From: Cymodocea nodosa
Lineage: Eukaryota > Streptophyta > Magnoliopsida > Alismatales > Cymodoceaceae
Reading direction: 5' to 3'
Length of the DNA stretch: 64,000 bases
Assembly: GCA_036874045.1 (NCBI GenBank)
Contig: JAZBRI010000004.1
Location: forward strand, 3,720,001 to 3,784,000
The number at the start of each line of letters is the position of its first letter. The first letter of the stretch is position 1. The notes beneath the pieces are model-generated. The model saw only the letters and a program-made list of their open reading frames with translations. It was not told the DNA's origin and did not search any database. Shown here in pieces: positions 8,247 to 61,119 of the stretch. Both the position numbers and the translations under genes were made by a program.

Positions 8247-8250
8247 GTCA

Positions 8251-30828: not shown

Positions 30829-30881
30829 ATGTGGTTTTCGTTCTGGAGATCCAGAGATCGTTTTTCACTTGACGAACTTCG
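30829..30881 (+). CDS. TT9: TT9 exon 1, isolated start exon
   Basis: 53 bases encode '[17 protein letters not shown]' plus two bases of the next codon, then a GTACGG donor. The phase fits exon 2 at 39,114, giving '[19 protein letters not shown]', the family's expected second block. The start is chosen because the [12 protein letters not shown] opening is conserved in the family. Confidence 0.93.
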
Positions 30882-33800
30882 GTACGGAAATCTTGATGCC
30901 CCTCCCAATTGGATTCTGTATTCGATTTTGCTCATTGTTTTGAACATTCGACATTGAATTTGGTTGGATATTTGGGCGCGGGGGGTTTGAATTTCCAATT
31001 GGGACGAGGTCGACGGTTGTGGAGAGACGAAAGGACAGCGTCTTGACAAGAGTAAGACAGAGTATTTTTGTTTGTTCAGTCCCTTCACAAACACTCTCAA
31101 AAATGAATTTATAGACGAATACCCGTCATTCCAAAGGAGTCATTATTTAGTGTTGCCGAAGACTGGTAGGTGGTGTAGGTGTACGGTCCACTTCCTTTAA
31201 GGTATGTTTATATGGTCCGCTCTGCACATTTAGACAGTGGATTCAATGGTTTTTTTGGCGACACCCTTTTTTATTGGCGTGTTGACTTCTTCGTTAATGT
31301 TGGAGTCGATAAATTCCAGTCGTATCGGCTTCTAGGTGCCCAAATAGAGGTAAAATGTCGGGAGTATGCTTTGACATCGGTGTTAAATTCGGGTAATGTT
31401 ATTTTCTTCTTCTGCTCAAAAAAATTTCACGTAATGTTATTTATTACGTTTTTTCTCCCATACATCTTTGACCATAATAAAACCTTTTCACTGTTAAGAT
31501 TACGATGGCATGGAAACTTTCTAGGAATCCCCCAATTGTCAAGTTGCTAGGTTCTTTGGCTTTGGTGGGAAGATCATAAACTTTCCGATAAATCATCCTT
31601 CTCATGTTTGCACATTTCTCGGCTAAACAATCTACAATGTTACCGTCTTCCTCGTAAATGTAAGCCAATGAGTGCATTGTCTAATCAGATCAATGAGATG
31701 ATCTCAAAATGTGAGTGCTTGCTAGTGTTTGCATTTGCCTTCCTTGATTATGGGGGTGCTTGTACTCATGGAATATGGCAGAAAGGAAAGAGATGGATAC
31801 TTTCTATTACATTCCTGATGTTTGTGCTTCTAGTAAGTGATGAAAGGTAATTTCATCACTTTTTGTGGTATAAAAGGAAAACATTTGCAAATTTTCTCCC
31901 CCCACCCTTGGAAATCTGACGAAATCTCGTGACCTCCCCAGATTGCCTGACTCCTGACATCCTAAATCTCACATCAAAGTTGTGCCTATATTGCTGTTCT
32001 CATGCCAAATCAAAAATCTCGCCAGTCTCACACTGAAAAGTCTTTTAACTTTGTCCCTTCAAAATTTTTCAATAGAAGATCAACACAATGTGTTATAGAT
32101 AGTATCCAAATAATGGGGTACTTCTCCATTATCTTTTTCCTAGCTTCCTTGAAGTTAACATTATTGTTCGTCACCTCCTATACAACATTTGATGATCCAA
32201 CTTCCTTGATAACGTCAAATATTAATTTACACAAATACTTGTAGTCTCTAACATTTTTGATGCACCAATAGGTTTCAAGAAAATAGCTCATCCCTTACGG
32301 TAGACCATGTTGTTGATGATCTACTTTCTCATAGCAGATGTCCATACATTATACATAATGGTGACAACATACATGGATCACTGCTTTCTTAAAACATCAA
32401 AGTAACTATTGATACACTGAAAATCACTAATATTCTCTGAAAATCAGTAATATTCTCTAATATATTCACTAATATTCATTAAAATTTAAAACATAATATT
32501 AATATCTTTGGTCTGTTTTAAAATGAAAGAAATGAGATGAGAAGAGAATCCACTTTAAGATAGAGTTATAGAAGAGACATCAAAGTTGATTTAATGGCTT
32601 CTCCTAAGAAAAACACCTTCAAAGTGTAGATCAAGGGCCTTCTATTTCATTTAGACATGAACATCTACCCAATTCAAGTGGAAATTAAGTGGATTGAAGA
32701 AGAGAAAATATGTGAAAATCACTTGAAACTTATCAATTCCACCAGCTGTTGGCAAATCCTAGGGATCAACCAATATGTGGATTTGAGTCTGACTTGTGAT
32801 TCAATATTGGCCAATCTAATGGTTTTTTGAGAATAGACTTGATTATTAGATTGGGCAGCCAAAATTCTGATCTGGATTATTGAAAAATCATTGATCTAGA
32901 TTGTTTGGAAAATTATACTTTCAACTATTATCTTCTATCTCAAAGGGTCCATTTGTATACTTAGAAAGTAACATAAAAGAAAGTGTCAGAAAGTTCGGAA
33001 AATAACGGAAAAAAAATTACAGAAAGTCGCTTGAAAATTATAGTATTTGTGCATTGGCTAGAAAGTGATAGAAATGTTCAGAAAGTAAAAAAGTAATAGA
33101 ATGTAATAAAATATGAATGATTAATATAAAAATATTTGTATATATCTTAAATTTATGGAAAAATTAAAAATGTTTACATTCTTCATAATAGTACATTATA
33201 CATTACAAAGTTAAATTTATAATATATAAATTTAACAAATTATAAAAATTTATTATTATTATAATTATTCATTAATTATTATTATTTCATCTTTTTTTTA
33301 TTTACAAATTTAACAAATTACATTTTCTTTTTTTTTCCTCTTCTTCCTTTTTCCCTCACTTTTTGTCACTTTTGGACCTTTAGCTTGAAAAGAGAACGAC
33401 TCTACTTTTTTTTTGCAAAACTTTTTCTAGAAAGTGACAAACTTTCTGTTACTTTTTACTAGACACAAATACATTATATTTTTTTACCGCTTTCCCTTAC
33501 TTTCTTTTCCACCATTTTCTCTTGTGCACAAATCCCCTTAAAGGGTGTAAACATGGCAATGTCTTGAGAGCAATGACGATTAAGGCTAAGAGAGGATTAA
33601 GAAAAAGAAGTAAATTTTCTATTAACAAATGTCATATAAATACATAAGCTTAAATGGGTAAACGAATCTACAGAATCCATTTACAATACTTTCACACCCC
33701 CCTGCTAGTTGGGGAATAGAGTTATACATTCCCAGCTTGGAACATAGAAAAGCAAAGGTACTAGGAGTAAGGGCTTTGATAAAAATATTCGCAACATGTT

Positions 33801-36800
33801 GAGATGACAGAACAAATGGGGTGCAAATGATGTTGTCTAATAGAAGTCAAATATAATGGTAATTCACCTTAATATGCTTTGTTTATTGATGGAAGAGTTT
33901 ATTCCTTGCAATATAAATTACAGTTTGATTGTCACAATATAGAGGAATTGGTGTAGGGACTTGCAGTCCCAATTCTACTAGGAAATTTCGTATCTATATA
34001 ATCTCTTGCCTTGCATTTCACATGACTCTATATTAAGATTCACAACTAGAGGTGGATACAAAATTCTATTTCTTGCCACATCAAGTGATAAAATTCCCTC
34101 CAGGTTCAATACCTAGAAATTGATTTTCTATCCACTTTATCTCTAACATAATTAGCATTTGAGTAGGCTACTACATTCAAGTGTTCATTATTGGAGTATA
34201 TTAATCATTTCCCTAGGTTAAGCTTAAGGTAGGTAAGAAGACGTTGAATACCTCTCCAATGTTCTAATCACAACTTCTGCATAAATTGACTTAGTAGTCC
34301 CATAAAGAAGGAGATATTCAGCCTAGTAACAATAAGATAAATCAATTGACGATAATGTCCAAGATCAGTCATGGCCTTAGAGGCATCATCCTAAAAAAGG
34401 GGATTTCTCTCTATGGGAGCTTGCTCAAGCTTGCATTCAAGCATACTTGTTTCCTTGAGGAGATCAAGAGTGTATTTCCGTTAAAATAAAGCTAGTTTGC
34501 TTTTGGCATAGACAAACTTGATCACAAGAAAATATTGTGATTGTCCCATGTCATAAAGGGAAAAGTTCTTGGCTAATAGAGCTTTGGCATAGATTATCCC
34601 TTTGACATCATCTCCTGTAAGGAGTATATCTTTCACATAGACAACAAGAATAGTGATTCTTGATAATCGCCGTTGGATGAAAATAGAATTCTCTACCACA
34701 CATTTTTGGAACTCATGAGCTAATATTACAAAACTAAATTTGGAGAACCAAGCATGTGGACTTTGCTTTAAGCTATAGAGTGATTTACGTAGTTGATAGA
34801 CCTTGTGTCCATCTTGATCTTGAACAAGATATCTAAGAGGTTGTTCTATGAAGACTTTCTCCTTATGATCACCATATAGAAAAGCATTACCAATGTCAAG
34901 CTGTGAGAGAGACCATGATCTTGTGACTATAATGGAGAGAATTATTTGGATGGAGTTAAGGCATGCAACTAGTGCAAAGGTTTTCTGATAATCCACACCT
35001 TCAATCTGCGTGAATCCCTATGCAACAAGTCGAGCCTTGTGATGATCAAGAGAGTTATCAAGTTTGTATTTGTTTGTAAAGACCCATTTACAACTGACTA
35101 TAAGAGTTCTTGGAGGCTTAGTGACTAACACCTATGTACCTCTGTCAAGTAAGGCTTGCATTTCCACATTAATAATACACTTCCAAGCAGGAAGTGTAAG
35201 TGCTTCCTTGTAATGCCTTGGAATTGATTCAAAAATAAGTATAGGTGATGTAGGAAGTAGATTAACAAAGTTAGTAACAGGATGATTAATACAAGCATAG
35301 GTATCTTTCCTTTGGGCGATTGGTAAGTCAAGAGATGACTAATCTGCAAGGGGTGGAGGAGCTGAGGTTGAGTCCATGAGCGTTGAAGGAATTTGGTGAA
35401 TACAATGCCTTTAATACACCTGTAAAGATGGTGACTATGGTGTATCCTTGTTAGCTTTAGGAGTATGTTCAACAAAGGTAGGACTTGGTTGTAGCTCAAT
35501 AGGAGAAATACAAGGAGAATCAAGCACCTCGATCCCATCAAGGAAGGAGATAGGAGGTGTAGAAAAATAGAGTACATTCTCCTAGAAGATCACGTTGGCA
35601 GAAGTGAAATATCGACATGTAGGAAGATGATAACCTTGATATCCCTTCTGACTACAAGGTTAACCAACAAAAATACATTTAATTGAATGAGGAGATAGTT
35701 TATCAAAACATGGTGAAATTTTTTTAACAGAGGTAATACAACCAAATATCTTTGGAGGAAGATGAAACAATTCCTTATTAGGATATTGTCTCCTTAAAGG
35801 GATATCTCTTCTTAAAGGTGTAAAGGGCATACGATTGATCAAAAAAGCAACTGTAGATATAACATCAGATTAAAGATATTTGGGTACATTCATCTCAATA
35901 AGAAGGGTGTGAGCAATATCTAAAAGATGTAGATATTTGCATTCAGTAACATCATTTTGTTGAGAGGTATATACATAAGTAGTTTGATGAAGTATCTCAT
36001 GATCAATACAAAAAGAAACAACAGTAGATTGAGTAAACTCAAGTGCATTATCAGTACAAAGAATTTTTGAAGTAATAACAAATTAGGTTTTTTTTTCATT
36101 AACAAACATTTTAATAACATCAACAACAAAATAACAATCTTTCAGGAGGTACAACCAAGACGCTCGAGAAAAATTATCAACAAACATGATATAGTAATGA
36201 AAACCAAATATAGACATAACCTACGAGGGTCTCCAAACATCACAATGGACAATATTAAAAGACATAGATGTTGACGCTAACTCACGATGAAGATAGGTAA
36301 CAAAAAAGTGCTTTTCTAAAGTATAGGATTGACATTGAAAAGACTTAAAGGATACCCAAGGTAACGCCTCCTAGAGCTTTTGATAGGATAGACATCCAAA
36401 ACGATGATGCCAAAGAAAGAATGAATCATTTGAAGATACCACAACTACAAGGCCTTGTGGAACATCTTCCTTGGCTAGAATGCAGACGTCATGACCCTAC
36501 TTATGGCCCATACCAATCTTTTTCCTTGTCTATAAATCTTGAAAGACATAATGGAAAGGAAAGAAGGTTACACAACAATGAAGTTGTTTGGTTATCTTAC
36601 TAATGGATAGTAAGTTAATAGGAAAATCTAAAACAAGAAAGATACAATCTAAGGTTATATTGTGATTGATGGGAGTGGTGCCCTTACACCTATCAACCAA
36701 GGCAACGGATTCAATGCTAGAGATCTCAAAAAGTCTTATAAAAAGGCTAGAATCACCTATAATATAGTTAGATGCGTTAAAATCAATGATTCAAAATAGC

Positions 36801-39800
36801 ATTAGAGGTGGAAGTGGGTGATGTGATATTACCAAACTAGATAACATCATTGGCGATGACCTTATTTTGTTGTTGTGCCCTATAAATCATCAACTCATCA
36901 AACTCTACTTGAGAGACCTGGATGGTGGTAGTGAAACTTGATCTGTAGCAAGATTAGTAGAAGAAGTAGGTAGAGCAGATTGAGTTGTTGCAACATTGGC
37001 GAAGGTAGGTGGAGTAGTGGGCTAACCAAACTTGTGCCAACACTTATCGAATGTGTGATTTTTTTTGCCATAATGAGTATGTGGTGGGCATGGAGGACCA
37101 CGTCCTCTTGATTGTCTTTTGTTATGTCTTGATGAACCCCGTCCTTTATAGGTAACAATAAATGCAGAGGCTACTTGAGTGCTAGTAGAAGTAGAAGATT
37201 TAGATTTTGTAGCAACATGCATAACCTTATTGAAAATTGTTTGAAGTGAAAGTAGCATATCAGCAGCAAGAATTTAACCTTGAACTTGAGTAGAAACTTC
37301 AGGACAAAGACTAACAAGAAATATTGCAACACCAAGCTCTTCACGATAACGTTGCTATGTAGGAATGTTAGGTGTTGGTGGTTCATAAACATCCAACTCA
37401 TCAAGAAGACACTTTAATCAACTGAAGAATGTAGGAATGATGTCATCTCCTTGTTTGTTGGTGAAAAGTGACTCATAAAGCTCACATACTTGGGAGATGT
37501 TCTGTTCATTACCATAAGTTGTGCGAAGATTCTCCTAAATGTAACTTGCATGCGCAAAACTTTGCATAATGTATTTTTCCACACTATTAAACAACCAAGA
37601 CACAATAGTGGCGTCAGATCCTCTCTAAGTCGCATAACCATTAGCTTTGTCATCTGGAGGATTGCCAAAGAGGTGATCTTCTTTGAGTTGTGAAATCACA
37701 AAAGTTTCAAAAGCTGGTGTCCATAGGTGATAGTTCTGTTCATTTAATTTAACATCTGTAACAACTAGTTTGTTGGATAACCCATCCCCCATCATATGGG
37801 TGTTCATCAGAGTTAGTGCTGAAAGGAGGATTAATTGACAAGCTCTCTAAAAGACAACCATTGCAAGGACTAATGGATGTCAACCTTAAGGATTGCTAAG
37901 AGGGCAACTGCAAACATTGTAGACTACAGGAGTCGACTAACATTGCAGGTGATGGATAGTAGATGTCTGGAGATGGCGACACTACAAGAGTCGACGAACA
38001 ACAACAACATTGTGGACGATAGGAGTCAATGGACACTATAGGTGATGGATAACGAATGTTTGGAGATGGTCGTGGCAACATTGGAGCCTCACCTGGTTGC
38101 TATATACGTAGCGACAAAGATCACAAATGGTTGGTTGGGTCACTTACAGTTCGACATGTGTGGCAACTCAAGGGCCACACTTGGTGCTGCACTCATAGCA
38201 GCTTGGAGAAAAGGATGACGAGAAGGAGTCTTGTTTGATGATAATTAGGAGCAAGCCAAGAGAGAAAAAACAACATATAGGGAGAGATCTGACATATGTT
38301 AACCTCCTACTTTGATACCAAGTGACAATTAAGGCTAAGAGAGGATTAAGAAAAAGAAGTACATTTTCCATTAAAAAAGGTCATATAAATACATAAGCTT
38401 AAATGGGTAAATGGATCTTGTAGATCCATTTACAACACTTTCACAAGAGCCAATAGCCACTTTTAGCTACAATAATGTTATCATAAATGTTTATGGTAAA
38501 ATAGTGAGCTAGGCTTAAGCAGTATTTATGATAGCCCAAAGGGACACCATGAAACTTGCAAACATGTTATCTTGTAGTATCTAACAGCCTAAAGGGACAC
38601 CATGAAATTTGCAATTTTATAATAAAAACACCCCACCATATTTAACTCCTGACCTCAATATTATTTGTTTGACACTATGCTACTCTTTGAGGGGATTTTG
38701 CCTTACACATGTATATGTCATCAACATTTGATCTCATGAAAATGAAGGGCCAAAATTGGAATTTTAAGTAATTGCTTCGCTTATATTTGGCATCAAGTGA
38801 AAATGATGTGCATGGAGAATTACTTTGATAGGCCTAATCAAATTAATGATTGCAACATGCATGTGTAGGAAACATAAAATTTATTTTAATGGTTATGTTG
38901 TCAAATGAAACATGCACCTTCTCTTGGAGGTTGAAGCTATTTTTTCATTTTCTTTGATATCAATAGGTTCAAAATGTGTTTGGTTGAAATTTCACAAATA
39001 ACTTCATATCATCTTTCATTAGTTGTTTGAATGTGTTATTTTACATATAATACATTCTATGCTAATAATGCTATTATCATGTATGTGGGCTAAGATTTGC
39101 ATTTGCATTGTAGATGCGTGACCGACCAATTGCAAAAGGTCCAAATTGTTAACGAGGTTAACAAGGTAGATGATTACCTATGCAAATTTCTAAAAAAAGG
39201 CTATCTATGACTAATGACTTTCGTGTATTATTTTTGTTTTGAAGGGTTTCATCATTGAAGCTTTAAGATCAATTGCAGAGTTGGTAACATATGGCGACCA
39301 GCATGATCCTAGTTTTTTTGAGTGAGGACAACTACTCAACTAGTGATCGACATTCACTGATGTTTAATAGTTTAATTGTGCTCATTTTTCAGCTAATCAT
39401 GGTATTTTTACTGTATAGGTTCTTCATGGAGAAGCAAATCATGGGTGAATTTGTGCGTGTATTACAGATCAGTAGAGTCATGAGCATTGCACTCCAATTA
39501 TTGCAGACAATTAGCATTATGATCCAGAATTTAAGAAGTGAACATGCCATTTGTGAGTTACATGTTAGAATGGAATTACAAAATTTGGTCTTTTATTTAC
39601 AAATATTGAGGTTATTATCTCACGAATATTTTTAACTTTGATGCAGACTACATATTTAGCAATGAACATATCAACTCTCTTATAACATATCCTTTTGACT
39701 TTCAGAATGAAGAGCTGTTATCATATTATATTTCATTTTTAAGGTTTGTACTCAACACTCATTTTTCTGCTAAATCTTTAGAAGCGATGCTTTATTTTGA

Positions 39801-42800
39801 TAGGTGAATCTTGGTGATAGAAGATAACAACAAAATTCTTTATAGCAACCCTGAGCACTTTATCATGTTTTCTTTTTTAAGGGCAATAAGCGGGAAATTG
39901 AACAAAAATACTATTTCACTACTTGTGAAGACTGAGAATGTAAGTCTTTCTCTCTTTTCTTATGCAAATCTTAAAACTGTTTACAAGTTTCCAAAAGGTG
40001 ATTTTATTATAAATTCTCTGAAAGACACAAGCATGGAAGGTTCATAAACTGATAAAGCCACAGATGACATAATGATGACAATCAAACAAGAATTGCTTAT
40101 ACAGTATTATTTTGACCACTGGTATAACACTTTTTTGGCAAATTCATGGATAAATATTAGTTTCATTCTCCTGAAATCTTAATCATGAAAACTGAGTTAA
40201 TGCTATTTTTGTTGCATGAAATGCCAATACACATCAAATAAATCTCAATGTACATTATCTGTATGTTTTCTTACTTCAGAAACCTGAAGTTCGACCACTG
40301 GCATTACCACTTAGAAGGCCCTTTCTCTTGAATTCTTTAACCATGGTTACAAACATCTCAATAATATCTAGGTCACATAGTTTCTCTAATTATATTCCTT
40401 CCTTTTTGCATTCTTATAGCTTTAATGAAAAATTCACCATAAGAATGGAGATAGTCATAATGCATACATTAGTATAGTTGAAAACAAGATTAGGGAAAAC
40501 TAATCACTCTACTTGCTGTAGCACTAGATTAAGAAAGTATATATACAAATACAAGCATAATGAATCATAAAGATCCATGTACCTATTAAGGGTGACCTGA
40601 CTATCTAACACTCTCCCTCAAGTTAGAGAATAAATATAAAATAATTTCAACTTGTTACTAAGATCATTAAATGGACCAACATGTAACTCTTTAGTGAATA
40701 CATCTGCCAATTGTTGAGAGGAATGAGTGAAGGGGAGAGTAATAGCATCTTTCAAAACAAGATCTCTCACATAGTGGTAGTCTACTTCAATATATTTTGT
40801 ACATTCATGGAAGGTATCATTACTTGCAATATAGATTGCTGTCTTGTTGTCATAATGCATAGCTATGGGTGTAGGAATTTGAACCCTTAGTTCAGCTAGT
40901 AGTGCTTTGATCCACACAAGTTTGTTGCTAATTTGAGACATGCCACGATATTTAGATTCGCAACTTGATTTGGATACAACATTTTGTTTCTTATTTTTCC
41001 ATGTGATTAGGTTGTCTCTAAAGAATGTGCAACAGTTAGAAGTGGACTTTCGATTTGATTTGTCTTTTGCATAGCTTAACATCAAAGAACTCACAAAGGC
41101 ATTGATGTCCATTACTAGAATACATTAGGCCTTTGCCAGGACAACTCTTGATATAGGCAATAATCCTGAGTGCTCTTTGCCAATGTACCTTTTTAAGCTT
41201 CTACATAAATTGACTTAGCAAACCAACAACAAAGGATATATCTAGACGTGTCATGGTTAGATAGATCAATTTCCCAAGAAGTCTGCGATAACTTCCGGGA
41301 TCATCTAAGGATGCTGAATCATTGTCCTAGAAAGGAAGATTTGGATCAATTGGAGTGTTTTTAGGTTTGCACCTCAAGAGACCCGTCTCCTTTGATAAAT
41401 CCAAAGCATACTTTCTTTGAGATAGAGATATCTTACCTTGGTTGTACGTAATCTCAATATTAAGAAAATAACGAGGTTGTCCCATGTTGTAAAGAACAAA
41501 GTGTTTTGAGAGGAACGCCTTAGTGGAAGCCAATCCTTGCAAATCATTACTTGTAAGAAAGATATCATCAACATAAATAGTTAGAATAGTGATATCTGCA
41601 GTAGACTAGCAAATAAAGATTGAGTTGTTTGCTTAGCTATTGTGGAATCCATGAGAGGTCATAATGGAATTGAATTTCGCAAATTAGGCACGAGGATTCT
41701 ATTTGAGCCTATATATAGTCTTCTTGAGGTGACATGCTCTATCCTCCCTTTGAGTAACAAATCCTAGAGGTTTCTTTATATAGATTTCTTCATGAAGGTC
41801 ATCATATAGAAAGACATTGCGAACATTAAGCTCACCAAGAATGAGTGGCAGCGAGAGCAAGAATAATCTGTATGGTAGGAAGTTGAGCAACAAGAGAGAA
41901 TGTGACAAAGTAATCAATGTTATGAGTTTGAGTGTAGCCACAAGCCACTAAATGAGCTTTATGACGGGCAACTAGGTCGTCAGGATTATACTTCATGGTA
42001 TAAACCCAATAATAGCCTAGCACGGGAGCGTAGGAAGGATGAGAGACCAATTGCCAAGTATCCTGCTCAAGTAAGACCTGCATTTCAACATCCTTGGTAG
42101 ACTTCTGAGCATCATGATAATCCTTGGGTAAAGATTCTGAAGTAAGAGAAATGGTAAATGTATAATTGGAAAGGGAGAGAACATCATATGAGACAAAGTG
42201 AGAGATATAATGCAAAGTGCAAGCACAAGTACCTTTATGTAGAGTAATGGGAATGTTAAGATCTGACAAGAGGTTTGCTGTATAGGAAGTGGGAGGTGTG
42301 GTCGATGGCACAGGCATGGGGGGAGGTTGTCAGTGGTAAACCTGTAAGGGAGGAGGGGAAGAGGGGGGAGGTAAGGTGCCCTTAGGAGAAGAGGATGGGT
42401 GGCTAGTGAATGGTACAGAAGAATCAAAAGAAGGAGAAGAAAGAGGTGAAGTTGGCATCTCAGAAGATAGCGCCGGGACTCGAGGAGGCTCAACTAGGAA
42501 AGGAGTCACAACAACAGTAGTAACAGAAGAAGGAGAAGAAAGAGGTGAAGTTGGTGAATTAGGAAGGAGGTAGCACAAGGACTTGAGGAGACTCAACCAA
42601 AAAAGGAGTCACAACAATAGTAGGAACAACAGAGACAGACAAGGAAGATGAAGAACGAGAGGTAAAAAATATGGAACATCTTTTTGAGAAAGGGCATTTG
42701 CAGAGGTAATGTAATGATGAGTACAAGATGATAACAAGGATATCCCTTGGAGGTACAAGAGTATCCAACAAAGACACAGTGAAAAGAACACGAAGATAAC

Positions 42801-48800: not shown

Positions 48801-51800
48801 TCAAGTTGCTATCTACATTGCCAAGAATGAGACCTTCCATGAATGCATCAAGCACATTGAGATAGACTGTCATTACATCCGAGATTTGGTCACAAAAGGA
48901 GTTGTTCGCACATCTCACATATTCTCCACTAAAGAATGTGCAGATATTCTTACTAAGGCTGAGTCATAAGTCCTTTAATTATCTTTGCAACAAGCTATAC
49001 TTTTTAGCTTGAGGGGGAGTGTTAGAGCTTTATTATGTATTAAGTTGTGTATGTTAGATTAGTTGAGTATATGGATCCATCATCCTATATATATTTACCT
49101 ATTGTACTTCCAAATTTTGATTCAATTCAATTGGGGTTTTCTTCTCTCCTTCTCTTCCACTTTAACAAGAGAAAATCAATTTAGGTAGTTTAATCATATC
49201 CTTAGGAGAAAAAGAAATGTACTAGTTATGAGAGGAAAATCAATTAGTGTAGAAGAAATTAAAAGAAGTAGAAGTAGCCTTAAAATTTATTGGTTAAGAA
49301 TTATAAGAAAAAATTTAAATTTATGTAATTGAACAGTAGTTTTGACCATAAATAAAAATACATGAAAAAAAGAATTTATGTGATCAACTCCACATAGTGA
49401 AATTATAGTTTGAATTGCTGTTATTGACTATATGAATGATTGTCAATATTAGAATCTGACGAATGTATTTCCCCTCCTTCCATCTAGGATGAGGTAGTTT
49501 CCTTCCCACTATATGTTGAGGCAATACGTTATGCTTTCCATGAGGAGAACATGATCCAAATTGCTATACGTGCTTTGACACTTAATGTTTATCATGGTAA
49601 GTTCTTTTTTTTATTTTCTCACATCTTTCAGTATTTGTTTTTATAGCATTTCTGTCACTTTTCTCCTCTTGTAGTTGGTGATGAAAATGTCAACAAGTAT
49701 GTCTCAAGTGTTCCTCTATCAGATTATTATTCAAAATTAGTTTTGAATTTTAAAAAGCAGTGCCTTGGTTTGGACAAATGGGTTTTTGAAGCCAAGTAAG
49801 TTGTTGGTACTAGTTCTTTTTTTTGAAGAGATCTTAATACTAGTTCCTAAAGAGTTAACCCAATAGCAATGAATGTCTTCATGAAGCAATTTCTAATCTA
49901 AATACAATCATTTTCTATAATTTTCCCTAATAGATGCATCAACTCCTTGATGATGTTAATTGGTTTTCAGTTGTCTTCTGTAACTTTTCTGACAACAGTG
50001 TGGTATTTGGATCAGGAATCCTGATTCATCAGATTCAACTTCATGTATACTTGTTGCAGTAGAAGAAATTGAGGACAACTTATATTATTTCAGTGATGTT
50101 ATATCTGCCGGTGTGCCTGAAATAGGAAGATTGATAACAGATAATATTCTGCAGCTTTTGGTCTTTCCCTTGCTTTTGCCCTCCCTGAAGGAGCAGCAAG
50201 TGAGTCCATTTGCTCCGTTATTTTCTTAAAAAAATAATAATGATACACCCACTGAGACAGTTTTACTTTACCACTCAGGAATCACAGATAGCTGTTACCA
50301 CTTCATTGTATATACTGTGTCGCATCTTACACATTGTGAAAACAAAGGATCTGGCCAGCAGTATAGCTACTGCACTTTTCTGCTTGCCAGAGTACTTCAT
50401 CCCGAAATCTGATGCTAAACTTAATGGATGTATTTTTTCTAATCCCACTGATGAGAGCAACCAATACAGAGGTGAATCTTTTGACGTTCAAGTTCAGACA
50501 GGAAATGAAGATCTTGAACTGCAATCCTTAAGTTCTTCCAGGGCTCTTTCACCACGTTGTTCTTTCTTTCAAAATAATGATGGTTTGCAAATGTCCTTAA
50601 GGTAATCTTCTATTCTACATGTAAATTGTTTGTTTCTAAGTTCAATTTCCTTTCTAGGAGGTTTATTACATGGTAATTATATATGTATTTCTCGTCTAGG
50701 GAGGTGTTGCTTTCCTATATTGTCAGTGGGAGTGAAACCGAAACATTGGGTTCTCTGAGTTTGCTATCTACTATATTGCAAACAAAAGGTTAAAATGATT
50801 CTTTGGCTTCTTCAGCTGTGTTCTCTGCATATTGACATTTATTATTTTCTCTTAGAGCTCGATGAGTCGATGTTGGATGGTCTAGGGATTCTTCCCCAAA
50901 GAAAGCAACAGAAAAAGCTCCTGTTAGTAAGTCAGCTGCATTGTTCTTATGCATAAAAGCTTGCTAGAGCTTTTAAAATTTAAACAAGGCCTTTCCTGGT
51001 GATAAATTTTCCTTTTCCTTGCATTCTATGCCCTGTAATATTATGTTTCTAAAATTTTCATTTTCATTGCATTCTGACCCTATAATATTGTTTTTCTGTT
51101 CAACAATACTTGCCAAACCTCTTTAATACATGAAAACCCTTTTCTTTTGCTAATTTTCTTTCTTCTCTTTAACAAGATGATGACAATTGTTGAAATGTGA
51201 TGCATCTAATTTAAAATCAATTGGTTGTCAGTGGAAAGATCTCTTTTTTATATATATGTACAAGTCATATTCTCACTTTTCAATGTAAGGCTATTCTAAG
51301 ACCCCCCCACCCATTTGTAGTTTTTTAAGGTGCTAAAAGTTTCTTTATGTTTAAATCGTGGTGATGCATTAAAACTTGAGCTTAGTAGATCATTATTGGT
51401 ATTGTTATCATGTCTAAAATGTGAGACATCTAACTTAAAATTAATTAGTTATAGAGATCTTTTTTTATACATTTATGCACTCATTCATACAGAGATTACA
51501 AATGTGAAGGGTTTTTATTTGGTCAAAATAGAAAATTGCAAGAAATTTAAGTATGAAAGTGGGCTTTTTGTGCATGATCTTCACACCCTTAATCTGGCCT
51601 TAATTGGGAAGTGGCTTTGGAGACTATATTGGGGTGGTGAATTTGGTCAATAATTTTGGCAAAAGGCAATTATGGGTAAATGGTATGGAGCTCAGCTGAA
51701 CTCTAAATTAAGATTCCAACTATCCAAGTACATAGAATTTGGAATGGTGTATTGGAATGACATCATATCATGTAGTGCATCATCAAGGCAACAATTAGTG

Positions 51801-54800
51801 ATGTAAGTGATGCAGATTTTGGAAGGACAAATGGTTGGGAGAGGGTACCTTAGAAGCCAGATTTCCTGCAGTCTTTAGTGCTGCAGTTAACCCTTTGGAC
51901 TAAAGTTATAGATGTGACATCAAATAGAGAGTTGATCATTTGGAATGTCAACTTGATGTGAGTGCAATTTAGAGTTAGGTTAGGAGAGGATTATGAGAGA
52001 TTAGGAAAAAGGAAAAAGGTGATTTTTCCATTACTCAAGAGCCTATATATATACTTACATAAAGGGGATCCATTTACAATATAGACTCTTACAAGTACAT
52101 TCACACTCCCTTTCAAGTTGGAGAATAGAGATTATAAATTTCTAGCTTGGAACATAAAAGAGTAAAGGTACTAGTATCGAGAACTTTGGTAAAAATATCT
52201 GTGACTTGTTGCAAAGACGGAACAAATGGGGTTGCAAATGATCCTTTCCAATAGAAGTTGTCGAATATAATGACAATCTACTTTAACATGTTTTGTCTAT
52301 TCAAAGAACGTTTTATTATTAGTAATATAAATTGCAGTTTGATTGTCACACTATATAGGAATTGGTGTAGAAACTTGCACTCTCAATTCTACCAGGAAAT
52401 TGCATATCCATATAATTTCTTGCCTTATATTTTGCATGCCTCTATATTCGGATTCACAACTAGAGGTTGATACAAAATTTTGTTTCTTATTGCATTAAGT
52501 AACAAAATTCCCTCCAAGGTAGGTGCAATACCTAGAGGTAGATTTTCTATTCACTTTATCTTCAACATTGCTAACATCTGAATAGGTCATGACATTTAAG
52601 TATCGATTGTTGGAGTATATTAATCATTTTCTTGGATTATTCTTGAGATAGGCAAGGGCACATAGGGCCCCCCTCTAATGGAGTAATTGTAGTTCTTACA
52701 TAAATTGGCTTAGTTGTCCTATAAAGAAAGAGATATTTGGCCTGGTAACTATAAGATAAATCAATTTTCCAAACGATAGTTACTAGGATCAATCATAATC
52801 TCAATGGTATCATCTCAAAAAAGAAGATTTCTCTCTATTAGAGCTTGCATCCAAGCATATAAATTTTCTTGAGGAGATCGAGAGTATATTTCCATTGAGA
52901 TAAAACTAGTTTACCCTTAGCATAGGCAAACTCAATTCCAAGAAAATATCAAGATTGATGTCTTGGAGGAAAAAATTCTTTGCAAGGAAGGCTTTGGTAG
53001 GGGTTATCCCTTCAACATCATCTTTTGTAATGAGTATATCATCAACATAGACTGTAATAATAGTCATTTCTAATGATCTCCACTGAATGAAAATGGAGTT
53101 CTCTATCACACATTTTTTGAAACCGTGAGTCAACATTACAAAGTTAAGTTTGGAGAACCAAATATGTGGACTTTGCTTTAGGCCATAGAGTGATTTGCAA
53201 AGACGGCAAACCTTGTGGCCATTTTGACCTTGAGTAGCATATCTAAGAGGTTACTTCATAAAGACTTCTTCCTTAAGATCACCATATAGAAAAATATTGT
53301 CAATATCAAGTTGAGAGAAAGACCATGATTTTGTGATTGCAGTAAAGAAAATAATCTCGATAGAGTTAAGGTATGCAATTGGTGCAAAAGTTTCTTGATG
53401 ATCAATGTCTTCAGTTTGCGTGAATTCCTGCCCAACAAGTCTAGCCTTACAATGATTCAAAAAGCTATTTGGTTTGTATTTATCTGTAAAGACTCATCTG
53501 CCTCTAACTATAGGAGCTTCCTAAGGCTTAGTGACCAATTCCTATATACTCCTATCAAGTAAGGCCTACATTTTCACATCTATAACATACTTCCAAGCAG
53601 GAAGTGTAAGTGCTTTCCTATAACGCTTTGTAATTGATTCAAAAATAGGTATAGATGATGTAAGATTTAGGTTAACAAAATTGATAATAGGATGAGCAGT
53701 GAAAGCATGGGTACTTTTTCTTTAGGTAATAGGTAAGTCAAGGGTTTTTGACTTATTTGCAAAAGGAGGAAGGGTTGATGTAGAGTCTATGAGTGCTGAA
53801 GGAGTTTGATGAATGCAACATCTTTGATACACCTACAAGGATGTTGACTGTTGTATATCCTTGTTAGCTCTTGGAATATGTTCAACTAAGGTAGGACTTG
53901 GTTGTGACATAATAGGTAAAACACAATAAGTATCAACAGTCTCGAGTTTGTCAAGTGAGGAGATAAGAGGTATAGTAGAATTATGAGTGGAAAAAAAATA
54001 AGGGACATTTTCTTGAAAGATCATATTAACAGAAGTGAAGTATTGACATGTAAGAGGATGGTAGCATTGATATCCTTTTGACTACAAGAAAAACCAACAA
54101 AGACACAATTAAATGAAGATACAGTTTATCAAAACTTCAAGAAAGATTTTTAATAAAGGCAGTACACCTAAACACTTTTGGATTAAGAGAAAACAATTCC
54201 TTATCAGAATATGATCTCCACAAAAGAATAACTCCTCTTAAAGGTGTAGAGAGCATGTAGTTGATCAAAAAAGTAGTTGTAGATACAATATCAGACCAAA
54301 GGTATTTTGACACATTCATCTCAACAACAAGAGTACGAGCAACATCTAAAATGTATCAATGTTTCATTCGACAACACTATTCTATTAAGAGGTATATGCA
54401 CAAGTAGTCTAGTAAAGTATTCCATGATCAGTATGAAAGGAAGCAACAATAAATTGAGTAAACTTAATTGCATTGTCAATATGAAGAATTTTTAAAGTAA
54501 CAATAAATTGAGTTTTTATTTCATTAACAAACATTTTGATAACATCAACCATAGAATGACGATCCTTTAAGAGGTACAACCAAGAAGCATGAGAAAAATC
54601 ATCAACAAACATTATATAGTAATGAAAATTAGACATAGATGTGATCTGAGAGGGTTTCCAAATATCACAATGAACAACATCAAAAGACATAAATGTTGAT
54701 GCTAATTTACGATGAAGATATTGAGAAACTTGTTACTTGGTGCAACAAGAATCTAACCTTAACCTATGTAGAAACTTTAGGATGAAGACCAACGAGAAAT

Positions 54801-57800
54801 AATGCAACTCCAAGTTCTTCACAATAATGCCTCTATGTAGGAACATCAAGCGTTAGTGGTTGATATATATCCAACTCATTGAGAAACATTTTGAGTTGAC
54901 TGAAAAATATGGGAATAGTTCCATCGTATTTGTGGGTGAAGAGTGACTCGTAAACATCACATACTTGGGAGATGTTCTATTTATTTATGTAGGTTACTCA
55001 AAGATTTTCCCAAATACGACAAGCAGGTTGAATACATGCAAAACTTCGCACAATATGCTCTTCCACATTGTTGAAGAGTCAAGAAATAACGACTGCATCT
55101 GATGCTCTCCAGGCTACATAACTATCAACTTTGTCATCTGGGGGATTTCCAAAAAGGTGGTATTCTTTAAGTTGTGAGATTACAAAAGTTTCAAAGATAG
55201 GTCCCCACAGATGATAGTTTTATTTATTAAGTTTAACACCTATTACAACAAGTTTATTGGGCAAACCAACCTCCATCATACATGTGGTCATTGTAAATGT
55301 TTGCAAAAGCAATCTCAAAACTTTGAACAGTGGTCGTTGCAAACATTGAACCTACAAGAACGGAACCAATGCAGTAGACCAAGCATCGAATGAATTGGTC
55401 TACATAAGTCGGATTGCAACTGACGAATTGGTTTGCAAGAAATCAGACTACAACAGACAAACAAGTACCAAAGAGTCGCACCCACTATAGATGGACTAAC
55501 AAATCGTTTTGATGGAGTTGCGACTATTATGAGAGCCACACTCGAGCACTACACAACAATGATGATGACTACGAATGGTCGGACGAAAGTCAACCTTCAG
55601 TCTGACATGAGTGATGACTCAGGGGTTGTTCCCTGGTATTGCACTTGTAATGTCCTGAAGAAGAGGTGACACTGAAGCTACATAGGAAGGTCTATCTGGT
55701 TCGCACAATCCTTGGTCTGAAAACAACAAGCAGGAGGGGGTGATTTCTGATGTTTCCCTCTTGCTCTAATACCAAGTGTGATTTAAGGTTAGGTTAGGAG
55801 AAGATTAAGAGAGATTTGGAAAAAGGAAAAAGGTGATTTTTACATTACTCAAGAGCTTATATATATTCATACATAAATGGGTAAATGGATCCACTAGATC
55901 CGTTTACAATACAGACTCTTACAGGTACATTCACAATGTGTATAATCTATAGGATGTTGAATTAAATGAGCCGGCCCATCTCTTTTACCTAGTCAACAGG
56001 AAAGACATCCTCCAAAATACTGGTCCTGAAATATCTTTACCTTGAAGTCTCTCTTGAAAGTCTCAACTCCCAAGGGTGGGGAAGTTAGATACCCATGATA
56101 TAAACAAGTGTGGAACCCAAGCTTATCAACAAAAGTGCAATTTTCTGCTTGGCAGATGATACTAGATGGTGTTCTATCGGCTGCAGTTTTACAGAAAAAA
56201 GGGTTGGCAATTAGCAAATCAGTGCTGTTTTTGTAGAAAGGACCTTTTTTCTCCTGGCCTGATATAGCATCTTGGTAGTCAAAATGGCTGCCATCCTTTG
56301 GTACACAGCTGTCCTGTCTCTCAATTCTCGACTATTTGAATAGCAGCAAACAAATTCAATGGACCCCAGGCTTCAGTTTGAATTTTGAATCTATTACCCC
56401 CATTAACCTGGTGGGCAAGGTGGTAGGAAAGTAACAGAAGATGATTCCACGACTCAGTGTGAGGCTTTGATTGCTGGAATGAATCTCTAATGGAGATGGT
56501 CACCAACTATGCCTCCACATAGGATTTGGGAAGTATGGTGTTCATTGCAGAACACCCTTTCCAACCCCCCCCCCCTTTGAATGGTGGTATGATTGCCTCA
56601 CTGTCTTCAAGAATATATCTGTAAGTCTTGTTCCCACTTTCCAATGTGGGACTATTCAAACAACTATAATGATAATTTCTTTTCCATTTATTAGTCCATT
56701 AAAAATGTAAATTTTTTATTAGTAATGCTATGTTGCTTTCAATTTTTTGCTTTGCATTTATTGATTGAAGCATTCATTTATGTATTTGTGTTTTTTGTCA
56801 TGGACACTGAAAATGTTTTTTTTTTTGAATTTAGCAAGCTTTGGTTGGGGAAGATTCTGGTGAAGAACAACTATTTTCCTCAGAGAATGGTTCAACTATG
56901 GATTGTATCAATACTGAACTTGAACGGTACCTGCAAAGGTTTAAGGTATTGACATTATTTCTGCAGTTTTTTCCTTTGAAATTTGGATCGACATGGACCA
57001 CTGTAGAGCAAAGTATTGTCTTACCGATCCTCTAGAGTTCTAGTATCATTCAAACAACACCTCAATTGTTTTCGATCACCTCCTTAGACTTTAGCGTCTA
57101 CCAAGCACTTGTAACTGCAAATAGAAAACAGTGCCTGTACCTGATATCAAATGGATAACCTCATTCTTTGTTCTAGGTTTAAATCAAGTTGAATTTGCAA
57201 ATTATAATTGAGCGCAAGAAGTTTTCCAAATTCATAAATTCACTTATCTTTAATCAAGCACTAAATTTAAGGCCATGAAAACTACAAGCAAATGGTTAAC
57301 TGAATCTATCCCACTCTTCAAGAGGATCTTGAATCAAGCCCTAAATTTAAGACCATGAAAACTACAAGAAAATAGTTAAATGGATAATTTGTTTAGGTTT
57401 TTAATTTTTTCTCTTTTGTTTTAGTGGATAATTTGTTTGCCCCTAAAAAGAACTTCTATTCAAGTCAAGCTAAATGACAACAAGTTTGGATATTGTTTCG
57501 GTGGATTTCATCTGCATTCCAACTTGTTTCAGTGGTAGGAAAAGGGTGAGAGCAATATCATAAATAATGTGAAAAGGTTTGATTAAATATGAACATTTTT
57601 AATCATATTCATTTATGAAAAACATGAATCTTTTTTGTTCCCCATATTCATTGATGAATAAAATACACAAATCCTTCTTTGTGTGTGTAACTGCACTGTC
57701 ATTCCCTGCACCTTTTGCTTTGGCTATAGGAAACCTAACTTAGTTTGGAAAACTCCTTTGTCTTATGCTATATGTTTATAAAGTCCTGTCCTCTTTTTAT

Positions 57801-60800
57801 CTCCCTTTATGACGAACAGAAGAGAAACTCTCTTTTACCAGAAATTAGTTGTTTAAATGTAAATATTATAGAGATTTGATTAGTCCTTGTTTTCAATCAT
57901 TTGTGTAATTTGTGATTCATTGCCTTTATTTAATGCATCATATCTTTTCTGATTGTAATCCATTTTTATCATCATTTCAACTATTTTAAGATAAATTCTA
58001 CTCAAGCATGGATCTTTTTGGCGGTTTTTTAAATATTTTGTAAAATAGGCTTGATTGAAAATAATTTCAAAAGTAGACCTGGTTAGTGTAGCAGGGCATT
58101 AAGTATTTTAATTTTTTTTTCATGAATTTGGTAATCGAACAACTGAAGTCATCCTGTATTGAGGAATTCAACAGCTTGACTACCAAATTTAGTTTGGTTC
58201 AAAAATGCTTGTGTTAGACATATTTTCATGTCTTTATTAAACTTTAGTATTTCAACTGCTGAATTTCTTAGAATTGGTAGCTGAATTACCAAATGATTTT
58301 TACAATTCAATTATCAAATTCAGGGAAAAAAATTAAGAAATACTTAATGACCTGCTACAGTTTTTTTTTTTTGTGGTAAGATCCCCAATCAATTAAGGAG
58401 TGGGGACCCTATCACAAATTGTTACAAGTATGAGAATGAGTATGAGGAAGCCAGATACAAAGTAATAGTAAAGGAAAAACTAAGGGACAACAGCATACAA
58501 CCCACATGAGGACAACCTGGCAGAACTGACTATTGGATATAGCTAAAGCATCCAATCGGGCTTGCCTCTAGACTTCCACCGAAAGCTCATCTAGACATTG
58601 ACAAACTCTCGATTGCTTGTAGAGATCCAACTTAACCAAGGCATCAGTGGTTGTATTAGCTTCCTAAGGCACAAAATGAAAGGAGTGCACTTGCTTCAAT
58701 ATGCAACAAATATCTATCAAGCATGATATTGCTTGTCCCTCTGCCCAATCATTGTTTCTAATACCATTGTAAAGGGAGAAGAAATCAACTTCCACTTCAA
58801 GGCACTCCAAAGCAAGGGCCAGCTCCATACAGGCGCATATGGCAGCATAAAGAGCTTGGAATTCTGCCATGATCACATTAGTCTGACATTAGGGATTGTG
58901 GAAGGCTAGTATTAGGGACCCATTAAGATCCTGAACCAAGCCTCCCCTGCCGCTGGACCCTCCAAGCTAACCATACCATCCATGTTGAGTTTGAAATTTG
59001 AGGGCAGTGGCTTCTCCCAAGCAATCCATTTGATTTTAGGCATAGTGGCCTCCACATGCATGAAACCCAAGTGTCAAAGTTTAAGGATTTCCTCTAGGTG
59101 GCATCGATTACTTCTGAAGGTATGAATAAAGGTTGTCATGACAGCTTCCACCCTTCCTTTGATGCTAATGAACGACCCCTGTTTTGGATTAAATACCACA
59201 AAACGTCTCTTCTTCCAACATTCCCAAAGAATGTTGACCATGAAAACTTAAAATGGTCAACAAGGTCAGGATCAAAGTGTGCTGGACAAACAACTTTCAA
59301 TCTATCTGATTGCACAAATTGAACTTGAGCTTCCTGTTAACCCAAAATCTACTTAAAATCACCCATTTGCCTTGAAAGCAGAGATGAAGAGAATAATCCT
59401 CTGCCTGTGCAAAACGGTAGCACCTGCATCTAGAAGCCAAATGAAAACCTCTCTTCTTGGTACTCTAATTTGTCTGGAGGATAGAGTAAAATAGCCTCCA
59501 TAAGAAGAAGGAAACTCTAGAGGATAAGAACTTGTTCCACAATCCTTTGTTTGACCCAACCTGATCCACCTTCTTACAGGTGATTTCCCAATTCGTCCTG
59601 ATTGTGAAATCCCCACAAGTTGACAACTTCCACCTGGAGGTATCATCAACATCCAAAACAAGATGCAACCTGGCATGGAGTTCTTGGACAACGTCCTCCA
59701 AGTGAGGGAATCAGTCAAGCACGTCTGTATTGGTTGCCACTTTTGCCACTGCTAATGACATGCTATAGTAGCCAAGCGTACTTTTGAAAATATTTTTTAT
59801 CCAAGACTATGCAAAATATTTTTTTAAAAATTAATATTTTAAAATAATTGCCTACCATGAATATGTATCCAAATTGATTTTTTGATGTTTCTTTCTCAGT
59901 CACAATATGGCTTGTTCTTTTGCTGCGGTGAATCTGGAATAAGCCCTCAGGTTCACAAACACCAGGTACTTTGTCATTTTGGTAATTTTGTTTTTTATCA
60001 ATGAAGGTCACTGATAGAACTGCAGATACATGTTTTTTTTAGTAAGGGAAAAAGAGTTATTGATCAAATGTATCAGTGAATTTTAGCATTTAATAATTTA
60101 TGATTTGCATGATGCTCATCTTTAATTTTTTTAAGGTCCACCAGAGTGCATTTACCTAATTATACACATAATATCCATTGGGTTTTTACCTTTCAATCTG
60201 CAAACAAAAGTTGTCCCAAGTTAAAATATCATCTCAGATTGTTGCAAGGAAACACAAAAATACTTTTATCTCATATATTACATACCAGACACTGATGTAT
60301 TCTATATGGACCTTGGCATCAACTTACAACCATTTTTAATTCAGTCACTAAATCCAACCCAAGAATTTTAAAATGTTCTCCCTTTCATCTTGAACATCTC
60401 TTTTACAATTTCTCATAATTTCCTCTTAAACTGCAATCTTATAGCTTCAAATAACATCAAAGAAAGTAGGGAAGAAGATTGGTAATGGTTTTCAATTTTC
60501 TTATGTAACAATGCTGGGACACTCAAGCAATGATGCTGTCAAAGATTAACATTTAATATCTAATAAAGCTTTGATGGCTATGGAATTGTTGGAGCAAAAA
60601 ATTGAGATGATTAGCTCAAAAAATGATGGGAAAGATGGAACTTCGATGAAGAGAGTAATGAGAAAATGAGGCAAGTCATTTCAAAATAATACAAGGGAAA
60701 TAAGCAGATACACCATAGGCAAGCAGCAGAAAGGTGGGGTTATTTTGATGTTAATGAAAAACCATTGCCATAAAAAAATATGGGATAGTTTGGGTCTACC

Positions 60801-61119
60801 TAAGTCTAATATTAAGTTTTAACAAAGTCATTGCCTTTTGAGAGGCTAGAACTTCCATATACATATTATTTCAATAGTTGGCCTTCAGTTTCCTTGTACG
60901 TTGAAAAGTAGGATGCATCATAAATTATATCGAATGAAAGGGTTGTTGCTTATATTAACTGTGAAGGTTTTTGTACTACAGGTTCTTGATGCATTGGTCA
61001 GCCTTTTCTGCAGATCAATTGTTTCTGCTGAGGTGTTATGGGCTGGAGGATGGCTTTTAAGACAGCTTCTTTCTCATGGTCATGCTGAATTTAGTAACAG
61101 TCATATGCAAATACTCAAG
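30829..61119 (+). CDS. TT9: TT9/GFS9-like protein (CLEC16A family, FPL domain), 3' end outside window
   Basis: Fifteen exons join in frame to 561 codons with GT-AG borders: 30,829-30,881; 39,114-39,165; 39,245-39,321; 39,419-39,552; 39,647-39,743; 39,882-39,939; 49,488-49,596; 49,675-49,795; 50,016-50,199; 50,279-50,601; 50,700-50,788; 50,856-50,926; 56,835-56,945; 59,900-59,965; 60,982-61,119. The protein starts '[17 protein letters not shown]', as in plant and animal CLEC16A proteins. The FPL domain (about residues 40-190) includes '[20 protein letters not shown]', '[12 protein letters not shown]' and '[20 protein letters not shown]'. Later blocks are '[18 protein letters not shown]', '[20 protein letters not shown]' and '[11 protein letters not shown]'. 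In Arabidopsis this Golgi peripheral membrane protein serves vacuolar sorting, vacuole development and flavonoid accumulation. About a third (roughly 280 residues) should lie beyond 64,000. Introns 1, 6, 12 and 13 (8.2, 9.5, 5.9 and 3.0 kb) hold transposons; most others are under 220 bp. Confidence 0.94.
31444..31720 (-). mobile_element. Possible L1 RNase H remnant, TT9 intron 1
   Basis: A minus-strand frame contains '[20 protein letters not shown]', which resembles the '..IYRE.N..AD.LA..' end of the RNase H domain in plant L1 elements. Nothing else of an element is visible nearby, so this is a weak call. Confidence 0.35.
31721..32940. other. TT9 intron 1, no feature seen
   Basis: AT-rich intronic sequence with no exon, transposon domain or repeat that I can support. 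Confidence 0.45.
32943..33540. mobile_element. Candidate PIF/Harbinger-related MITE, about 600 bp
   Basis: The ends are inverted relative to one another. The left end reads 'gggtccatttgtatac' followed by several 'agaaagt' words; the right end, reverse-complemented, reads 'ggggatttgtgcacaag' followed by 'aaaagaaagt'. The interior is AT-rich and non-coding. The ends resemble the terminus of the PIF transposase relic at 46,502 ('gggagtgtttgtgcac' with following 'gaaag' words). The 3-bp target duplication is not clear. Copia element C inserted about 30 bp to the right. Confidence 0.55.
33572..33696 (-). repeat. 3' LTR of copia element C
   Basis: Direct repeat partner of 38,321-38,445. The element-strand start is TGTGAAAG. 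Confidence 0.92.
38321..38445 (-). repeat. 5' LTR of copia element C
   Basis: Ends GTCACT on the element strand, directly followed by the primer-binding site. Confidence 0.92.
38451..39113. other. End of TT9 intron 1, no feature seen
   Basis: Intronic sequence between copia element C and exon 2. A short phrase 'agcccaaagggacaccatgaaa' is repeated in near-identical form at about 38,535 and 38,590. Nothing else is recognisable. Confidence 0.45.
40476..40610 (-). repeat. 3' LTR of copia element D
   Basis: 135-bp partner of 45,096-45,223. It starts TGTTAG and ends CAACT on the element strand. Confidence 0.92.
45096..45223 (-). repeat. 5' LTR of copia element D
   Basis: 128-bp partner of 40,476-40,610. 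It starts TGTTTAGG and ends CAACT on the element strand, directly before the primer site. Confidence 0.92.
45229..45660. other. TT9 intron 6 sequence between insertions
   Basis: AT-rich intron between copia element D and the RTE composite. No exon or transposon domain is seen. Confidence 0.45.
45905..46498 (-). mobile_element. L1-type RNase H fragment inside the RTE composite
   Basis: On the minus strand, degraded frames give an '..[10 protein letters not shown]..' block and '..IYYILKEAN...DSLAKGTF', the C-terminal RNase H wording also seen at 10,600-10,900 and 58,660-58,876. The region has stops in every frame. Its right end meets the PIF terminus. Confidence 0.5.
46502..47795 (-). mobile_element. 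PIF/Harbinger transposon relic with DDE transposase
   Basis: The left end 'gggagtgtttgtgcac' follows TTA (46,499-46,501), the target preference of this superfamily. The minus strand encodes two transposase blocks. 47,795-47,527 has 'IGDGTHIKV', '[21 protein letters not shown]' and '[14 protein letters not shown]'. 47,412-47,068 has '[12 protein letters not shown]'-like sequence, '[23 protein letters not shown]' and '[11 protein letters not shown]'. The gap between them looks like an intron or decay. The first Asp and the Glu of the catalytic triad are present. The second, expected as Asp before the 'RIL' block, reads Asn here, so catalysis is doubtful. The N-terminal part, Myb-like gene and right terminus are missing: the relic is cut at about 47,795 by the junction with copia fragment F. 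Confidence 0.82.
47796..49167 (+). mobile_element. Ty1/copia fragment F (RT to 3' LTR)
   Basis: Plus strand, degraded: RT from the '..[19 protein letters not shown]' block (about 47,830) through '..[11 protein letters not shown]' (about 48,070) to '[21 protein letters not shown]', '[15 protein letters not shown]' and '[10 protein letters not shown]' of RNase H (48,780-48,970). A polypurine tract 'gagggggag' and a 148-bp 3' LTR (49,020-49,167) follow. The 5' half is missing. Unlike elements A, C, D and E this LTR has canonical TG...CA ends, so it belongs to a different copia lineage. It is the only sizeable copia copy in the TT9 sense direction. Confidence 0.82.
49020..49167 (+). repeat. 3' LTR of copia fragment F
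   Basis: Begins TGTTAGAG after the purine tract and ends TTTAACA. No partner LTR is in the window. Confidence 0.75.
51500..51960 (+). mobile_element. L1-type LINE fragment in TT9 intron 12, cut by copia element E
   Basis: Plus strand: '[19 protein letters not shown]' and '[12 protein letters not shown]' (51,580-51,690), then '[20 protein letters not shown]' (51,815-51,880). This is the conserved stretch between reverse transcriptase and the zinc-binding domain of plant L1 elements. It has several stops. Copia element E inserted right after it; the continuation beyond 55,941 is too degraded to confirm. Confidence 0.65.
51961..52105 (-). repeat. 3' LTR of copia element E
   Basis: Starts TGTGAATG and ends GCACT on the element strand. 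Confidence 0.9.
55775..55935 (-). repeat. 5' LTR of copia element E
   Basis: Starts TGTGAATG and ends CACACT on the element strand, directly before the primer-binding site. Confidence 0.9.
55941..56834. other. End of TT9 intron 12, unassigned
   Basis: Moderately GC-balanced sequence unlike ordinary intron, with a C run near 56,562-56,572 and degraded frames. It may continue the L1 fragment that ends at 51,960, but I could not recognise a domain. Exon 13 follows after a T-rich tract at 56,817-56,826. Confidence 0.35.
57251..57410. repeat. 80-bp tandem duplication in TT9 intron 13
   Basis: 'aatcaagcactaaatttaag' at about 57,252 and 'aatcaagccctaaatttaag' at about 57,332 begin two diverged copies that share 'ccatgaaaactacaag'. 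Otherwise 56,946-58,344 shows no feature. Confidence 0.75.
58361..59752 (-). mobile_element. L1-type LINE, 5'-truncated, with target duplication, TT9 intron 13
   Basis: Minus strand: a zinc-binding RT domain ('[21 protein letters not shown]', '[20 protein letters not shown]', 59,700-59,465), then RNase H ('[20 protein letters not shown]', '[15 protein letters not shown]', 58,876-58,664), ending in a 12-base A run (T on plus, 58,361-58,372). A 16-bp target duplication flanks it with 14 matches: 'taatgacctgctacag' at 58,345-58,360 and 'taatgacatgctatag' at 59,753-59,768. Only the last 1.4 kb of the element was copied. Frames are broken by a few stops and shifts. Antisense to TT9. Confidence 0.85.
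59966..60981. other. TT9 intron 14, no feature seen
   Basis: A 1.0-kb AT-rich intron between exons 14 and 15. No transposon domain or further exon was found. Confidence 0.5.

Follow-up and report, generated by a model that had tools for sequence, protein, structure and literature searches.

Introduction

The locus raises the question of whether fifteen short coding segments, spread over more than 30 kb and interrupted by sequence that resembles transposable elements (TEs), still belong to one working gene. The window, the whole stretch of DNA analysed, comprises 64,000 nucleotides of Cymodocea nodosa (contig JAZBRI010000004.1, positions 3,720,001 to 3,784,000). The best explanation of the locus is one host gene of the TT9/GFS9 (FPL/CLEC16A) type, which exceeds 30 kb through TE insertions in introns 1, 6, 12 and 13, and this reading is given a probability of about 0.88.

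Gene structure

An exon chain was rebuilt from the raw sequence and consists of 15 exons (30829-61119, + strand) with 1683 nt or 561 codons, over a visible gene length of 30,291 bp (Table 1). Donors are GT in 15/15 cases and acceptors AG in 14/14, and the phases are compatible at all 14 junctions. Introns 1 to 14 measure 8232, 79, 97, 94, 138, 9548, 78, 220, 79, 98, 67, 5908, 2954 and 1016 bp, respectively. The initial annotation had given about 1.7 kb of coding sequence over fifteen exons, eight introns of 67-138 bp and one of 220 bp, introns 1, 6, 12 and 13 of 8.2, 9.5, 5.9 and 3.0 kb, and phases and splice borders that fit throughout; its exon count, named borders, phases and intron sizes agree with the independent reconstruction. 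An alternative acceptor of exon 9 at 49999, leaving an intron 8 of 203 bp, was ruled out by stops from exon 9 onward, so that 220 bp is the correct size. The size of intron 14 was absent from the initial annotation.

The joined exons contain no stop codon in the model frame, whereas the other frames hold 30 and 54; at intron base composition, a run of 561 open codons would arise by chance with a probability of 8e-20. Checked exon by exon, the model frame is open in 15/15, and exons 1 and 13 are open in one further frame. Exon 15 is followed by a GT donor and then by at least 2881 bp to the window end, which places the 3' part of the gene outside the window; the gene should continue there.

Table 1. 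Features of the TT9/GFS9-type gene, its intronic elements and the neighbouring gene (positions in the window)
Feature	Position	Strand	Remarks
SERRATE-like gene	20447-27544	-	upstream of TT9; ARS2 domain E 4.4e-31 at 20447-21256
Exon 1	30829-30881	+	ATG, 53 nt, ends in phase 2; outside the Pfam match; also open in one other frame
DUF659 transposase pieces	32031-32294	-	intron 1, two adjacent; E 3.3e-6 and 2.4e-4, both below cut-off
Copia C	33572-38445	-	intron 1, antisense, target duplication AGAGC; RVT_2 E 8e-38
Exon 2	39114-39165	+	reconstruction
Exon 3	39245-39321	+	FPL starts here, at residue 42
Exon 4	39419-39552	+	reconstruction, FPL
Exon 5	39647-39743	+	reconstruction, FPL
Exon 6	39882-39939	+	reconstruction, FPL
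Copia D	40476-45223	-	intron 6, antisense, target duplication AGTAT; RVT_2 E 3e-15 and 1.1e-13; Pol_BBD E 7.7e-7
RTE-like block	45678-49426		intron 6; holds PIF and copia remnants
PIF-type transposase (DDE_Tnp_4) pieces	47071-47895	-	E 7.7e-8 above cut-off; E 5.8e-5 just below
Copia F coding piece	48736-48966	+	46% identical to copia D piece over 74 residues; no Pfam match
Exon 7	49488-49596	+	FPL match reaches here from exon 3, across intron 6
Exon 8	49675-49795	+	reconstruction
Exon 9	50016-50199	+	acceptor 50016, intron 8 of 220 bp; weak CLEC16A_C match starts here
Exon 10	50279-50601	+	reconstruction
Exon 11	50700-50788	+	reconstruction
Exon 12	50856-50926	+	reconstruction
L1-like remnant	51321-51955	+	intron 12, left of copia E; recognised by eye, no meaningful Pfam match
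Copia E	51961-55935	-	intron 12, antisense, target duplication ATGTG; RVT_2 E 1.3e-14, rve E 5.2e-9
Exon 13	56835-56945	+	also open in one other frame
L1-like remnant	58667-59751	-	intron 13; zf-RVT E 1e-4, RVT_3 E 0.0061, both below cut-off
Exon 14	59900-59965	+	reconstruction
Exon 15	60982-61119	+	last visible exon

Identity of the encoded protein

The predicted protein matches the FPL domain (PF09758) at residues 42-192 over the complete profile (positions 1-148 of 148; E 1.6e-54; 184.4 bits, cut-off 26.1). A weak match to the CLEC16A C-terminal domain (PF19439) at residues 249-326 (E 0.0036; 16.3 bits, below the cut-off of 22) covers positions 10-91 only of a profile of 767, the end of the gene being beyond the window, and is overlapped by a RAI16-like match that is also below cut-off (E 0.016). 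CLEC16A and plant TT9/GFS9 both carry an FPL domain, and an N-terminal stretch of 17 residues and motifs in exons 10-15 presumably correspond to plant TT9 motifs. Because the firm Pfam cover is limited to residues 42-192, the TT9 label of exons 1-2 and 10-15 derives from this presumed likeness of motifs. The single TE-expanded TT9/GFS9 gene of the initial annotation is supported as a collinear gene, its name being tentative for those outer exons.

No match to the predicted protein was obtained among solved structures (PDB). When the first 295 residues were searched against contigs of prokaryote genomes, 26 stretches matched a pattern and none was confirmed, and a search of plasmid records with 49488-50926 returned no match. 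Rfam and tRNA scans of the whole window found nothing.

Transposable elements in the long introns

Three copia elements (C, D and E) had been assigned to introns 1, 6 and 12, respectively, and all three were recovered. RVT_2 is present in the minus-strand coding pieces of 3/3, each element has paired LTRs (125-161 bp), and perfect 5-bp target duplications flank 3/3, the element ends having been set with the duplication in view. The sequences of the three elements are related to one another, and C and E were also compared directly. A match to Retrotran_gag_3 at 37628-37846 (E 0.025, below cut-off) is weak and fits copia C. The datable copia elements are antisense to the gene in 3/3 cases, a number too small for a test (n = 3), and copia F and the L1-like piece of intron 12 are in sense orientation.

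Most of the remainder of intron 6 is a composite block, with one copy of a perfect 18-bp direct repeat at each end (45660-45677 and 49427-49444). Parts of this block resemble an RTE-like copy located at 24815-25599 (82% over 83 columns, 77% over 208). Just behind the left 18-bp repeat, 45682-45728 is a second match to the 3' end of the RTE-like copy (25553-25599; 81% over 47), so what looks like one insertion may be two RTE-like pieces within the block. The coding piece 23795-24328, near the RTE-like copy, gave no meaningful Pfam match. The composite of RTE, PIF and copia F sequence described in the initial annotation proved correct in outline.

L1 had been reported in introns 12 and 13, and L1-like remnants were noted at both sites, though both calls are weak. 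DUF659 is a mark of hAT-type transposases, and the two adjacent pieces of intron 1, both below cut-off, are probably a decayed transposase of this type. A stretch of intron 1 at about 32944-33541 was considered as a PIF-like MITE; the alignment of its two ends scored 25, compared with a mean of 16.9 and a best of 33 in 200 shuffles, and because the score lies below the best shuffle this candidate is neither claimed nor counted. The right end of the same AT-rich stretch (32944-33541) resembles the PIF end at about 46498, with a score of 44 obtained without shuffle control. An open stretch of 112 codons is located at 55996-56331 (-) in intron 12 and has no Pfam or PHROGs match, and intron 13 contains two 60-bp copies at 57246-57385 that are 88% identical and start 80 bp apart.

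Pfam was searched with 29 distinct window pieces, 51321-51650 included. Eleven of the 29 pieces had no match of any kind (40621-41124, 48736-48966, 46365-46592, 55996-56331, 61562-61864, 54140-54355, 48425-48616, 59098-59319, 31447-31680, 27053-27544 and 12402-12713). Matches to Herpes_LMP2, MRPL52, Tuberin, Ccdc124, TSTD2_N and SPO1_gp41 were below cut-off and were taken as chance.

In the five introns longer than 500 bp, 19,330 of 27,658 bp (70%) are assigned to TEs when the whole intron 6 block is counted, with shares of 62%, 89%, 78%, 37% and 0% in introns 1, 6, 12, 13 and 14, respectively. If DUF659 and both L1-like stretches are discounted as weak calls, 17,346 bp or 63% remain. The statement that nearly all the excess length is transposon is thus mostly borne out as to TE content but overstated in degree, the assigned share being 63-70%. 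Part of the remaining 30-37% may consist of older repeats that escaped recognition.

Neighbouring sequence

The gene upstream of TT9 is SERRATE-like, and its arginine/proline-rich N-terminal piece (27053-27544, no Pfam match) is presumed to be part of it. The RTE-like copy at about 24.8-25.6 kb is situated between the two SERRATE-like pieces, so this second gene of the window also seems to carry an intronic transposon. Its presence there suggests, from two genes only, that TE-bearing introns are not special to TT9. Elsewhere in the window, a copia RVT_2 remnant was found outside the TT9 gene at 1539-1910 (-, E 7.6e-9), and local tandem duplications were found at 8249-8688 (units of 169 and 135 bp) and 17306-17805 (units of 227 and 71 bp).

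Age of the insertions and state of the coding sequence

The LTR pairs of copia C, D and E show identities of 0.888, 0.914 and 0.903 and K2P distances of 0.122, 0.094 and 0.104, respectively, with standard errors of about 0.025-0.028. Conventional rates are 1.3e-8 and 7e-9 per site per year. At these rates, the three elements are 3.6-8.7 million years old, a range that is rough because the LTRs are short. Methylated elements may mutate faster than exons.

Neutral drift of the coding sequence was simulated with an exon change equal to half the LTR distance (0.061, 0.052 and 0.047 per site) and with an indel rate based on just 2 gaps, compared with 39 substitutions, across the LTR pairs of all three elements. 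None of 2000 simulated genes remained free of stops, splice-dinucleotide losses and frameshifts in any of the three runs. At half the lowest rate (that of copia D) 1.65% were intact, and at a quarter of it 12.7%. Stop codons alone provide a weaker test, with 2-4% of the genes stop-free at the full rate and 12-20% at half. As 0/2000 simulated coding sequences were intact at the age of the copia LTRs, the exons have probably been kept by selection, and very probably through most of the period that followed the insertions. The initial description of the gene as looking functional despite its load is put somewhat too strongly, since the judgement extends to the DNA of the part inside the window; for the exons there, the simulation supports continued selection.

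Alternative explanations and proposed mechanism

The intact exons could also belong to a recently dead or silent copy that no longer yields a single transcript, its role being filled by another TT9 copy. Some neutrally drifting copies do remain clean for a time, as the figure for a quarter of the copia D rate indicates, but at the LTR-derived rates no clean copy was left, and here the frame is unbroken, without a stop, with every GT donor and AG acceptor in place. Recent death is accordingly improbable. Division of the gene by its insertions into two or more independently expressed transcription units is the least probable of the alternatives. The available text of the rice study reports premature polyadenylation at large TE introns when IBM2 is impaired (PMC7145194), which is how such a division might arise; against it, the phases agree on both sides of each of the four TE-loaded introns, and no single piece would hold a complete FPL domain, since this domain is coded on either side of the 9.5-kb intron 6.

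A different alternative concerns the history of the introns and leaves the gene whole. The introns may have been long since an ancestor, with the visible copia elements as later additions to old repeats that can no longer be recognised. The sequence without TE assignment in the long introns is in keeping with this, as are introns 13 and 14, most of which is not identifiable transposon. The visible insertions are nevertheless sufficient to account for introns 6 and 12, given their assigned shares, and ancestral length is considered a real but minority prospect, better placed than either death or division of the gene.

Under the preferred reading of one TE-expanded host gene, the length of more than 30 kb results from copia, RTE-like and L1-like elements and DNA-transposon remnants inserted in introns 1, 6, 12 and 13. 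RNA polymerase II would transcribe the whole locus as one pre-mRNA, the intronic elements would be silenced in place, and the spliceosome would remove introns of up to 9.5 kb in the same way as the short ones. A plant IBM2-type pathway, which carries transcription through heterochromatic introns, would prevent the silenced elements from ending the transcript, while selection would have held the exons intact since the insertions. As copia C, D and E are antisense, their own poly(A) signals would stay hidden from the transcript. A stronger proposal, that TT9 output from the four introns loaded with old TEs depends on the IBM2-type intron-heterochromatin pathway, is a long shot; if true, changes in TE silencing would alter TT9 dosage and, through it, vacuolar trafficking and the storage of flavonoids. 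It is plausible that gene predictors would mis-split the locus.

Comparison with known systems

In the accessible part of one Arabidopsis report, GFS9 is allelic to TT9, is localised to the Golgi, and has roles in vacuolar protein trafficking, vacuole development and flavonoid accumulation (PMC7475254). The present gene has the protein family in common with it, as judged by the FPL domain and the presumed TT9 motifs. No literature linking TT9 with introns, retrotransposons and flavonoids was found, and the locus may still have been described; for antisense intronic TEs, only vertebrate work was found.

Long introns filled with TEs have been surveyed in grapevine, where the text available lists 2,563 genes that contain 2,697 introns of 3-100 kb, these introns being more than 80% repetitive, with copia about 6.5 times as numerous as gypsy, LINEs common, and 188 EST clusters that matched several annotated genes, described as genes wrongly split at a large intron (PMC3058033). 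The present locus fits this description of long, TE-filled introns bearing copia and, here as candidates, LINE elements. It differs in its LTR pairs, which are 89-91% identical in all three elements, whereas about 30% of the intronic pairs in that account of grapevine are more than 99% identical, and in that the grapevine case was demonstrated with ESTs (PMC3058033) and the present one was reconstructed from genomic DNA.

For Arabidopsis introns longer than 5 kb, RT-PCR validated 6/8 but not 2/8 and found one new intron, and several of the validated introns hold copia or LINE elements, according to the sections available (PMC5575664). The introns of 5-12 kb described there resemble the present ones in consisting mainly of TEs (with one exception), including copia and, as candidates in the present locus, LINEs, some of which also run opposite to the gene (PMC5575664). 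Splicing was tested by RT-PCR in that work (PMC5575664), whereas here several such introns are proposed within one gene from genomic sequence.

In rice, intronic heterochromatin occurs in more than 10% of genes, and OsIBM2 supports transcription through TE introns, its loss leading to premature polyadenylation there, as stated in the portion available (PMC7145194). The heterochromatic introns described in that portion are long and TE-bearing, belong to active genes and are enriched near promoters (PMC7145194), features to which the present locus is similar, its transcription being presumed. TE-filled introns in expressed plant genes are already documented in grapevine, rice and Arabidopsis, and the present locus is a clean but ordinary example. 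It leaves existing knowledge unchanged, as grapevine and rice have been measured genome-wide and Arabidopsis tested by RT-PCR. Its value is that of a well-resolved case, in which exons seem to have remained under selection for millions of years, through several large insertions into the introns. It is also well suited to testing gene predictors and to the study of how silenced introns are transcribed.
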